Source of the DNA: Thermoplasmata archaeon
GTDB lineage: Archaea; Thermoplasmatota; Thermoplasmata; Lutacidiplasmatales; UBA184
Direction: 5' to 3'
Length of the DNA: 53,035 bases
NCBI GenBank assembly: GCA_021819135.1
Contig: JAKASE010000016.1
Location: forward strand, 1 to 53,035
The position numbers and the translations under genes were made by a program. The notes beneath the pieces are model-generated. The model saw nothing but the letters and a program-made list of their open reading frames with translations. It was not told where the DNA came from and searched no databases. Below are positions 36,639 to 39,111 of the stretch, in pieces. Numbering within the stretch: position 1 is the stretch's first letter; every line of letters begins with the position of its first letter.

Positions 36639-37970
36639 ATGCCGGAACCGCTCCCGACCCGCAGCTCCTACTCGCGCCTCCTGCGCAACCCGGCGTACCT
36701 GAGGATCTTCTCCGCCGGCCTTGGCTCGGTCGCCGGCCAGGCGGTCGCTTCGGTCTGCCTGGTCTGGGTGGTCTACGCGGCCACGGGGTCGGCGCTCGAC
36801 GTCGGTCTCCTGGGCGCGTCGTACCTCGTCGCGTCGATCCTCTTCAGTGTCTTCACGGGCACGTGGGTCGACCGCTACGACCGGCGCCGCCTGATGATCT
36901 TCTCGGACTTCTCCCGGGCGCTCGCGATGGGCCTTGTGGTGGTCGTGCTCGTCGTCTGGGGTTTCCAGCTCGTCGCGATCCTGGTCGTCTACGCCGCGGT
37001 CGGTGCGCTCTCGACCCTGTTCAATCCCGCGGAGCAGGCGATTGTCCCCGCGCTGGTCGAGGGAAGCGACGTCGCGAACGCCAACGGGCTCGTTCGGTCG
37101 AGCCGATCGACGCTCCAGTTCGTCGGCACGTCGGTCGCCGGGGGGCTCATCGTGACCGTGGGGGGCGCCACCGGCATCGCGGTGAACGCCCTCACGTTCC
37201 TCCTCTCGGGCGCGCTCCTGGTCGGGCTCCGGGTCCCGGCCTCCGGGTCCGCCCGGTCCCGACCGGCGCCGGCCCGCGGGAGCTACTTCTCCGAGGTCAC
37301 CGCCGGGTTCCGGTGGCTCTGGCGAGCGAAGGGGTTCTTCCAGCTGACCGTTTCGGCGACGTTCTTCAACTTCTGCTCGAACCTGATATTCACGTTCCTC
37401 GTGATCTTCGCCACGGGGGTCCTCCACGGTTCGGCGCTGGTCTACGCGTTCCTTCTCGCGGCGATCGTGGCCGGAGGCGCGATCGGGTCCCTCCTCGTCG
37501 GCCCGACGCGGGGGCACCGTTGGGCGGGCCGTGCCTGGGTGGTACCGTACGGCGCCCTGTCGGGTGGGCTGGCGCTGCTGCTCGCCCTCGTCCCGACCAT
37601 CCCGGTCGCGCTGGGGGCGCTGTTCGTCCTGGGGGTCCTGAGCGGGTACGCCGGCACCGCCTGGCTCACCGCGGCCCAGTTGCTCGTACCGACGAGGATG
37701 CAGGGCCGGTACTTCGGGATCGACAACCTCGGCAGCATCGTGATCCTCCCGATCGCCGAGATCGGCGGGGCGCTCCTCATCACGGCCTACGGGATCGGCC
37801 CGACGTACCTCGTGGTCGCGGTAGCCTGGATCCTCGCCGGGCTCGTCTTCCTCGCCCCGAGGGCGTTGTGGAGCCTCGGCTATCGGCCGGAGGACCCGCG
37901 GGCTACTCTCCGTACCGACGGCGACGAAGCTGGTACGCCCGGATCGCCCGGAGGAACTCAAGACGCGTAA
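36639..37970 (+). CDS. MFS transporter
   Basis: The 443-residue protein has about twelve hydrophobic segments and the MFS signature between helices 2 and 3, GTWVDRYDRRRLM. It resembles drug or siderophore exporters of the EntS-like MFS group, with the LFNPAEQAIVPALV and NGLVRSSRSTLQFVGTSVAGGL regions. Substrate unknown. The ATG at 36639 opens directly before the first helix; upstream in-frame sequence lacks homology. The hydrophilic C-terminal tail overlaps the cis-prenyltransferase gene by 68 bp. Confidence 0.9.
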   Translation: MPEPLPTRSSYSRLLRNPAYLRIFSAGLGSVAGQAVASVCLVWVVYAATGSALDVGLLGASYLVASILFSVFTGTWVDRYDRRRLMIFSDFSRALAMGLVVVVLVVWGFQLVAILVVYAAVGALSTLFNPAEQAIVPALVEGSDVANANGLVRSSRSTLQFVGTSVAGGLIVTVGGATGIAVNALTFLLSGALLVGLRVPASGSARSRPAPARGSYFSEVTAGFRWLWRAKGFFQLTVSATFFNFCSNLIFTFLVIFATGVLHGSALVYAFLLAAIVAGGAIGSLLVGPTRGHRWAGRAWVVPYGALSGGLALLLALVPTIPVALGALFVLGVLSGYAGTAWLTAAQLLVPTRMQGRYFGIDNLGSIVILPIAEIGGALLITAYGIGPTYLVVAVAWILAGLVFLAPRALWSLGYRPEDPRATLRTDGDEAGTPGSPGGTQDA

Positions 37971-38718
37971 GCCCGGGCCAGAGGACGTCGGAGAAGTACA
38001 GCTCCGAGTACGCCGACTGCCAGAGGAGGAAGTTCGAGATCCGCTCCTCGCCGCTCGTCCGGAAGATGAGGTCGGGGTCCGGCAGGTCCTTGGTGTAGAG
38101 GTGCCGGCTGACCTCCTCCGAATCGATGTCCTCCGGGCGCATTCGGCCCGCCTTCACTTCGCGGGCGAGCGCCCGGATCGCCTCGACGATCTCGTCCCGC
38201 CCCCCGTAGCCGAGAGCGACGTTGTAGAGGTACTTCGAGTAGCCTTCGGTCGCCTTCTCGGCGATCCCGATCGCCTCCTGCACGCGCGTCGGGAGGAGGG
38301 CTCGGTTCCCGATCACCCGGACCCGGATCTGGTGGCGGTGCACGCGTTCGTCGACCGCGATCTGCCGGAGCGCCCGATCGAACAGGTCCATCAGGGCCTC
38401 GAGCTCGTCCTTGGAGCGCGTGAGGTTCTCCGTCGACAGGGCGTAGACGGTCAGGATGCGGATGTCGAGCTCGAGACACCAGTCGAGGAGCTCCTCGAGC
38501 GTGTCCCGGCCCTTGGCGTGGCCCTCCTTGACCTCGATGCCGGCCGCCTGCGCGAACCGGCGGTTGCCGTCCATGATGATCGCAAGGTGCCGGGGCATCG
38601 GCTCCTGGCGGATGAGATCGAAGAGGCGCTTCTCCGTCAGGTCCCGGAGCGCATCCCCGACGACCTGCGAGAAGTAGGGGGAGCTTCCCGCTTTCTTCGG
38701 GGGAGGATCATCGGTCAC
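37903..38718 (-). CDS. uppS: cis-prenyltransferase (polyprenyl diphosphate synthase)
   Basis: The 271-residue enzyme extends farnesyl or geranylgeranyl diphosphate with Z-configured isoprene units to form the dolichol-type carrier used in archaeal N-glycosylation and envelope glycan assembly. It has HLAIIMDGNRRFAQ with the catalytic Asp, YALSTENLTRS, and DLIFRTSGEERISNFLLWQ. Start is the GTG at 38718. tRNA-Asp lies 70 nt upstream on the same strand and may be co-transcribed. Its product would serve the glycosyltransferases earlier in the window; chain length cannot be judged. Confidence 0.93.
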   Translation of the reverse strand: MTDDPPPKKAGSSPYFSQVVGDALRDLTEKRLFDLIRQEPMPRHLAIIMDGNRRFAQAAGIEVKEGHAKGRDTLEELLDWCLELDIRILTVYALSTENLTRSKDELEALMDLFDRALRQIAVDERVHRHQIRVRVIGNRALLPTRVQEAIGIAEKATEGYSKYLYNVALGYGGRDEIVEAIRALAREVKAGRMRPEDIDSEEVSRHLYTKDLPDPDLIFRTSGEERISNFLLWQSAYSELYFSDVLWPGLTRLEFLRAIRAYQLRRRRYGE

Positions 38719-38788: not shown

Positions 38789-38891
38789 CGCCCTGGTCGG
38801 GAGTTCCGGACCGAGGGGGGACCCTCGGATCCTTCGAACCCGAGTCGCAGGCTCGACAGACCTACATCCTAGACCACTAGACTACCAGGGC
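38789..38891 (-). tRNA. tRNA-Asp(GUC) with a T-loop intron
   Basis: On the minus strand the acceptor stem GCCCTGG/CCAGGGC is perfect (38891-38885 with 38796-38790), with discriminator G38789 as expected for tRNA-Asp. The D-arm keeps A14, G15, G18, G19 and A21. The anticodon loop CTGTCGA carries GTC at 38857-38855. The T-stem TCGGG/CCCGA is split by 30 nt, 38832-38803; removing these gives a standard seven-base loop TTCGAAT. CCA is not encoded. A TATA-like CGATTAGG lies about 20 nt upstream. The uninterrupted anticodon loop shows there is no canonical intron. Confidence 0.9.
38803..38832 (-). other. non-canonical tRNA-Asp intron between positions 59 and 60
   Basis: The fold is a textbook bulge-helix-bulge: T-stem as outer helix, 3-nt bulge ACT (38804-38802), 4-pair central helix TTCG with CGGA (one G-U), 3-nt bulge AAG (38834-38832), then an inner hairpin of eight pairs with one bulged T. 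Cutting each bulge after its second base removes exactly 30 nt and restores a normal T-loop. Confidence 0.85.
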
Positions 38892-39111
38892 AACCTCGCA
38901 GGCCTAATCGCTTCCCCGTATGAGCGTTACTCGCGCCCGGCCGGCTATACGTCCGGGGCATCTCCGCTCCGCGCGCCGGCGCGCGGGCGCGTGCGCCCGC
39001 GTCCGACCGGCGGACCCGACCGGCGCGGAGGCGACCCCTCGTGCGAGTCGAAGCGGCCGTTTATGTAGCGATCCCGCGGATGAACTCCACTGCCGTGGAG
39101 AGGCCCTGACC
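38892..39111. other. intergenic region with promoters
   Basis: This stretch holds the presumed tRNA-Asp promoter (minus, near 38908-38915) and, near 39062, a TATA-like GTTTATGTAG for the small membrane protein gene. No gene is supported. Confidence 0.4.

Follow-up and report, generated by a model that had tools for sequence, protein, structure and literature searches.

A predicted T-loop intron in the tRNA-Asp gene of a Thermoplasmata archaeon and its counterparts in other tRNAs of the Lutacidiplasmatales

Can a two-domain splicing endonuclease of a kind described as narrow serve an archaeon whose tRNA genes are interrupted in their T-loops? The question is raised by a tRNA-Asp(GTC) gene on contig JAKASE010000016.1 (assembly GCA_021819135.1) of a Thermoplasmata archaeon of the Lutacidiplasmatales (UBA184); the whole stretch analysed, 53,035 nt read on the forward strand, is referred to below as the window. 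The gene is interrupted by 30 nt between tRNA positions 59 and 60, and the insert is very probably a protein-spliced archaeal tRNA intron. This reading is based on where the insert lies, on its conservation, on intact orthologues and on co-variation between exon and insert, together with genes for EndA and RtcB in the genome.

The tRNA-Asp gene and its insert

The gene and the parts of its predicted splice structure are laid out in the window as follows.

38789..38891, minus strand: tRNA-Asp(GTC) gene with T-loop intron, from the sequence, from ARAGORN on the joined exons and from covariance model R1 (111.9 bits, a score that is not independent because this sequence is among the 19 T-loop-interrupted tRNA sequences on which R1 was built)
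38833..38891, minus strand: 5' exon, tRNA positions 1-59, 59 bases with 90% identity to the uninterrupted orthologues L055 and L056
38803..38832, minus strand: predicted 30-nt intron at 59/60, absent from L055 and L056, which belong to a sister family
38789..38802, minus strand: 3' exon, T60 to the discriminator, from the sequence
38855..38857, minus strand: anticodon GTC, from the sequence and from ARAGORN on the joined exons
38839..38843, minus strand: 5' strand (TCGGG) of the outer helix, which is the T-stem; partner CCCGA at 38797-38801
38835..38838, minus strand: 5' strand (TTCG, T54-G57) of the central helix; partner CGGA at 38805-38808, inside the intron
38832..38834, minus strand: 5' bulge AAG, with the expected cut after its second base
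38802..38804, minus strand: 3' bulge ACT, with the expected cut after its second base

Removal of 38832-38803 leaves the T-loop TTCGAAT and a standard tRNA with the acceptor stem GCCCTGG/CCAGGGC (38891-38789, minus strand), as evidenced by the ARAGORN call of tRNA-Asp(gtc) on the joined exons and by the match to intact orthologues. The insert and junction that the earlier note had read from the letters are thereby confirmed, and the geometry is as it had described: the T-stem forms the outer helix, the bulges AAG and ACT are 3 nt each and lie at the exon-intron borders, and the central helix TTCG/CGGA between them has four pairs, one of them U-G, which together make up a bulge-helix-bulge (BHB) motif. 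All four central pairs and both 3-nt bulges were found in 24 of the 24 tRNA-Asp genes compared (this one included), with introns of 28-33 nt whose interior varies. A cut after the second base of each bulge, which we take to be the cleavage rule, places the two cuts at 38833/38832 and 38803/38802. The alternative border at 58/59, cut one base earlier, would yield TTCGACT, and the 59/60 border was kept because intact orthologues read TTCGAAT. A group I or II self-splicing intron, the catalytic core of which takes some hundred nt or more, was ruled out by the 30-nt length and by an Rfam scan of the window in which no family reached its gathering score.

We infer from the sequence that the intron is spliced. 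In the precursor, T54-T55-C56-G57 would pair with CGGA near the intron end to give the 4-bp centre, with the T-stem as outer helix; a two-domain EndA would then cut within each bulge, and RtcB would ligate the ends to give TTCGAAT. Since the intron pairs with T54-T55-C56, modification of the T-loop would have to wait for splicing.

ARAGORN called no tRNA in the window, and RF00005 gave the locus 22.5 bits (cut-off 29 bits) with a wrong T-arm. Because standard tRNA finders missed the gene, BLAST, a pattern scan and the covariance model R1 were used instead.

Interrupted tRNA genes in the genome and its relatives

In a BLAST comparison with 60 relatives, interrupted full-length tRNA-Asp orthologues were present in 23 of 36 same-genus genomes. 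A class-wide search of 200 genomes found the gene interrupted in all 30 Lutacidiplasmatales family genomes. Both genomes examined of sister family f2 (G037 and G039) carry it intact, with the T-loop TTCGAAT and with identity to the predicted spliced product at 67 of 73 positions in each; intact genes also occur in more distant class members (L057, 63/73 identical; L060, 61/73). Comparison with sister genomes, which the earlier note had proposed as a check, favours its intron. Nor did the counter-case that it had named, a second and uninterrupted tRNA-Asp(GUC), appear: there was no second tRNA-Asp among the matches listed for the genome itself by BLAST, RF00005 and R1 (assembly 91% complete), and in the 30 family genomes the matches listed included no second, intact tRNA-Asp, the 73-nt matches opened proving to be tRNA-Glu. 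The tRNA-Asp of G038 (family f3) has a 14-nt T-loop insert and apparently an anticodon-arm insert as well.

A gene that standard tRNA finders miss might be a decaying pseudogene that suffered a chance insertion. We regard this as exceedingly improbable given that the cloverleaf is intact, that this is the sole tRNA-Asp found in the genome, that the same interruption recurs throughout the family genomes searched, and that a TATA-like box is kept upstream (by eye).

The tRNA-Asp intron is one of many. The 39 tRNA genes identified in the genome comprise 30 found by RF00005 and nine more found by R1, and 11 of the 39 carry T-loop introns: Asp, Glu-CTC, Gly-TCC, Arg-TCT, Arg-TCG, Gln-CTG, His, Ala-GGC, Ser-GCT and Ser-GGA by script, and Leu-TAG by eye. 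Eight of these 11 genes are absent from the RF00005 list, and ARAGORN recognises the spliced product at 10 of the 11 loci given to the script. D-arm introns were read by eye, and so with less certainty, in iMet (L029), Arg-GCG (L100) and Leu-TAG (L101, G000:C35:211343-214430), the last of which thus holds two introns; those of iMet and Arg-GCG are roughly 25-35 nt long, with borders by eye. The genome accordingly has at least 14 non-canonical introns, 11 in T-loops and three in D-arms, the T-loop being the commonest non-canonical site found. The number of interrupted tRNAs is a minimum, because neither RF00005 nor R1 recovered several tRNAs, including Trp, Asn, Lys-TTT, Pro and Arg-CCG. Introns were not counted from R1 matches, since uninterrupted tRNAs match R1 as well.

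The same pattern extends beyond this genome. Among selected matches from family genomes G029 and G207, T-loop introns were also seen in Asn and Lys-TTT; Lys-TTT has a D-arm insert too in G029 (L323), G207 (L330) and the f2 genome G039 (L335), with borders by eye. An ARAGORN reading of this extra Lys-TTT insert as an anticodon intron was dropped because the insert lies in the D-arm, and the G207 gene, which ARAGORN labelled Stop(tta), was read as Lys from its CTTTTAA loop. G207 also has a Leu-TAG gene with inserts in both the D-arm and the T-loop (L331; by eye). The T-loop introns of sister family f2 interrupt Arg-CCG and Ala-CGC (G037 and G039) and Lys-TTT (G039), and in four further families of the class, with one match opened each, they interrupt Arg-CCG (G144, G076) or Glu-TTC (G142, G150). 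The tRNA-Glu(CTC) intron is present in 24 genomes, 20 of the genus and four of other family genera, and missing from five genomes of other genera in the same family, whose intact genes equal the predicted spliced product at 73/73 positions in three cases and at 72/73 and 70/73 in the other two. As read from these sequences, tRNA-Glu(CTC) is a clean gain or loss of a T-loop intron within the family.

A pattern scan of genome contigs for tRNA-Asp with 20-45 nt at 59/60, in which central pairing was not demanded and which overlaps many genomes of the BLAST comparison, returned 90 loci (a few genomes give two), with all four central pairs in 83. Titles were available for 80 loci: 59 Thermoplasmata (including UBA184, UBA61 and AcS/SubAcS soil metagenome-assembled genomes, MAGs), 18 Woesearchaeota, and one each of DPANN, Euryarchaeota and a bacterium. 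Four central pairs were kept in 58/59 Thermoplasmata, 14/19 Woesearchaeota/DPANN, 2/2 loci with other titles and 9/10 untitled loci. Woesearchaeota are thus a second, distant lineage with T-loop introns. According to PMC9287336, UBA184 is grouped in one family with 35 new soil genomes, AcS3-62 among them, in an order named Lutacidiplasmatales with a GC content of about 69%; going by their names, the other AcS/SubAcS MAGs probably belong to that study.

The earlier note had stated that introns at 59/60 are rare in euryarchaeal lineages. The site is indeed a known one; the tRNA-Asp intron is no lone oddity, however, given the other interrupted tRNAs of this genome, the sister families and the Woesearchaeota.

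Several tRNA observations stand apart from this series. At L024 (G000:C14) and L329 (G207:C1), an anticodon-arm intron interrupts a tRNA with a Glu-like body that ARAGORN calls Arg-TCG; its loop sequence, CCTTCGA, looks like that of a Glu-TTC with C33. Two copies of tRNA-Ile(GAT), L006 (G000:C33) and L007 (G000:C47), each lie near a contig end. Two further features flank the tRNA-Asp gene in the window.

38919..38928, minus strand: TATA-box-like element AACGCTCATA, by eye, 28-37 nt upstream of tRNA-Asp, a putative promoter
37903..38718, minus strand: polyprenyl (undecaprenyl) diphosphate synthase gene, the downstream neighbour, outside the mechanism

In many genus orthologues the element at the same upstream spot reads AAGGTTCATAG or similar (upstream listing, by eye).

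Co-variation and the central helix

The BHB central helix predicts that tRNA position 57 should vary together with intron position -6. The sample comprised 122 T-loop introns drawn from 56 genomes, and the family supplied 113 of these introns, in 49 genomes; it consists of the best-scoring matches, chosen for opening. Over the 113 family introns, Cramer's V between position 57 and intron -6 was 0.97, and at none of the 17 other intron positions compared did it exceed 0.43. Among family introns G57 stands opposite C in 69 of 71 cases, and within family tRNA-Asp G57 goes with C in 40/40 and A57 with G in 7/7. When the 19 R1 training rows were left out, G57 faced C in 54 of 56 introns, and A57 faced G in 29, T in 7 and A in 2 of 38. 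In an alignment of 19 sequences, the structure counts exceeded those of 500/500 shuffles and of all slid versions on all five measures.

Co-variation, with changes on both sides of the pairs, indicates a structured RNA and is not in itself proof of removal, so the mature tRNA might keep the insert as an additional T-loop hairpin. This we judge very unlikely. A retained hairpin would occupy T54-T55-C56, which are needed for the tRNA elbow; its helix is flanked by two 3-nt bulges, as EndA needs; the insert is absent from intact orthologues; and 11 tRNAs would have to share the same oddity. Removal by splicing therefore stays the preferred reading.

A number of observations weigh against that reading and have to be set beside it. 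The V of 0.97 is not a probability, because the sequences are related and the introns sampled came from BLAST and from a model built on some of the same sequences. A57 in family introns stands opposite G in 32 of 42 cases, T in 8 and A in 2, and where it faces G or A the central helix is left with 3 bp. The inner helix is paired in only 72.5% of cells of the 19-sequence alignment, and a central helix of 3 bp plus A.G is found in six of the genome's 11 T-loop introns, five of them read by the script and the sixth, in Leu-TAG, by eye, this being the one that the script did not confirm. No tRNA-Asp was seen by BLAST in 13 of 37 genus genomes, most of the 13 being incomplete. Folding energies were likewise unhelpful: ViennaRNA prefers a 6x6 internal loop over the BHB for the window gene by 3.9 kcal/mol, and across 48 Asp introns, in some of which an A.G had to be forced, the BHB averaged 2.7 kcal/mol above the best fold and was itself the best fold in just five. 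The unspliced gene as a whole folds better than its shuffles (z -3.37), whereas the T-arm plus intron alone does not (z -0.81). Because the BHB is not favoured by it, thermodynamic folding was dropped as support.

The label of a strict BHB given in the earlier note holds for tRNA-Asp and fails for the six T-loop introns of the genome that have three clean central pairs; introns with 3 bp plus A.G are a relaxed BHB. A shifted 4-bp register (G53-C56) was sought by hand in a few A57 introns and none was found. The A.G opposition at A57 is not predicted by a strict BHB, and Woesearchaeota have T there instead: among the Woesearchaeota/DPANN loci, which came from the pattern scan only, T stands opposite A57 in 11/12 and C opposite G57 in 4/7. 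Intron 3' ends that are shared between tRNAs are largely forced by the BHB.

The splicing endonuclease and its reach

A PF01974 match was found in 55 of 61 genomes, and 53 of these 55, the genome under study included, have two such matches within a single open frame; the six genomes with no PF01974 match are all of the genus and incomplete. The EndA of this genome, 354 aa long if begun at the GTG that the open reading frame (ORF) tool picked, scores above the TIGR00324 cut-off in two stretches, and in an alignment of its C repeat to the EndA of M. jannaschii the residues Y, H and K, presumably the catalytic ones, are in register. By its sequence, the only EndA found in the genome is of the two-domain alpha'2 kind, with two repeats in one polypeptide, and its domain layout suggests that it acts as a homodimer. 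The EndA proteins were extracted with phmmer from a fetched list of 35 loci, and no insertion at the site of the crenarchaeal specificity loop (CSL) was seen in 14 of 14 family EndA aligned (own included), nor in that of UBA61. The loop site was placed ahead of the LSL motif that is conserved in the catalytic unit, and A. pernix alpha has an insertion there in the same alignment; the comparison is of the CSL site, as distinct from that of the ARMAN loop (ASL). An RtcB ligase gene is present in the genome. The earlier note had reasoned that the organism needs an endonuclease able to cut at 59/60; an endonuclease was found, and it is not visibly a special one, being alpha'2 and devoid of the crenarchaeal loop. 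Overall, the interpretation in the earlier note is partly supported.

This enzyme sits uneasily with published descriptions. PMC4090602 lists 59/60 among known non-canonical intron sites, best known from Crenarchaeota and above all Thermoproteales, and assigns to Euryarchaeota, with mostly alpha4 or alpha2 enzymes, single introns at the canonical position; other papers cite Sugahara 2008 and Fujishima 2010 for non-canonical BHB introns. A 2014 review (PMC4033280) gives Korarchaeum as the sole alpha2 archaeon with non-canonical introns and lists Methanopyrus kandleri and Methanothermobacter thermautotrophicus as multiple-intron Euryarchaeota, and in PMC8450103 the tally for 217 archaeal genomes is 673 non-canonical introns, the models there covering some euryarchaeal ones. 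The present introns resemble those of Thermoproteales in position, BHB motif, the many tRNAs hit and the occurrence of two-intron tRNAs, whereas the crenarchaeal hosts have a heterotetrameric EndA described as lenient and the host here is one of the Thermoplasmata with a two-domain, loop-less EndA. Korarchaeum cryptofilum likewise combines non-canonical tRNA introns with an alpha2 endonuclease; the comparison differs in the 14 family EndA aligned without an insertion at the loop site. The alpha'2 EndA of Archaeoglobus fulgidus and Thermoplasma acidophilum likewise has both repeats on a single chain, carries Y/H/K in the C-terminal one and lacks a CSL-like insertion, yet those enzymes are described as narrow, and PMC4090602 links such enzymes with one intron at the canonical position, as opposed to at least 14 non-canonical introns here. 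The intron itself is of a known kind; its lineage, scale and enzyme context depart from the statements of the reviews. A search of the open-access literature found no report of such introns for Lutacidiplasmatales.

If the introns are spliced, there is about an even chance that the family alpha'2 EndA is ordinary and narrow and cuts any well-formed BHB wherever it lies, with no change of enzyme needed. Four G57 introns of the genome and that of tRNA-His all keep 4 bp, and neither the aligned family EndA nor that of UBA61 has an insertion at the loop site. Woesearchaeota/DPANN tRNA-Asp genes point the same way, with inserts of 20-45 nt at 59/60 in 19 loci (L107, L111, L112 and L115 among them), a 4-bp helix in 14 of them, and PF01974 matches in 13 of 18 genomes, each in a single-domain ORF of 133-258 aa as in alpha4 enzymes; the loop is absent from all 12 full-length Woesearchaeota/DPANN EndA aligned, although a beta subunit may be too diverged for PF01974 in these genomes. 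Some relaxation of the enzyme nevertheless seems needed, because of the 3 bp plus A.G introns (six of the 11 in T-loops) and the D-arm introns. The premise of a narrow enzyme is itself debated: PMC6379350 and PMC12397907 describe alpha'2 enzymes as narrow, and the label is disputed because PMC8707768 lets homodimeric enzymes also cleave bulge-helix-loop-like motifs.

The other explanation, again on the condition of splicing, is that the family alpha'2 EndA became broader in specificity by a route other than the known loops, to which we give somewhat less than an even chance. A57.G central helices are common (32 of 42), and D-arm introns and two-intron tRNAs occur (by eye); the aligned family EndA offers no loop-site insertion to which such a change could be tied.

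TTCR is common to nearly all tRNAs, and therefore an intron ending in (C/T)GRA-NN can build the same splice structure in almost any T-loop, which would be why introns are found in at least 11 different tRNAs of the genome. On this ground we tentatively propose, while thinking it rather more apt to fail than to hold, that TTCR served as a landing site for small BHB introns across a dozen Lutacidiplasmatales tRNAs with the endonuclease type unchanged, and that a loop-less alpha'2 EndA cuts T-loop and D-arm introns, those closed by A57.G included. In practical terms, finders that miss such genes would lead to false tRNA gaps being reported for MAGs. According to reviews, where tRNA introns can occur depends on how the splicing endonuclease is built; a soil archaeal family in which a supposedly strict enzyme coexists with many T-loop introns puts that rule to a natural test and makes a standing idea on the spread of tRNA introns testable. 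If the proposal is true, the rule that traces intron diversity to (alpha-beta)2, epsilon2 or loop-bearing enzymes would no longer hold.
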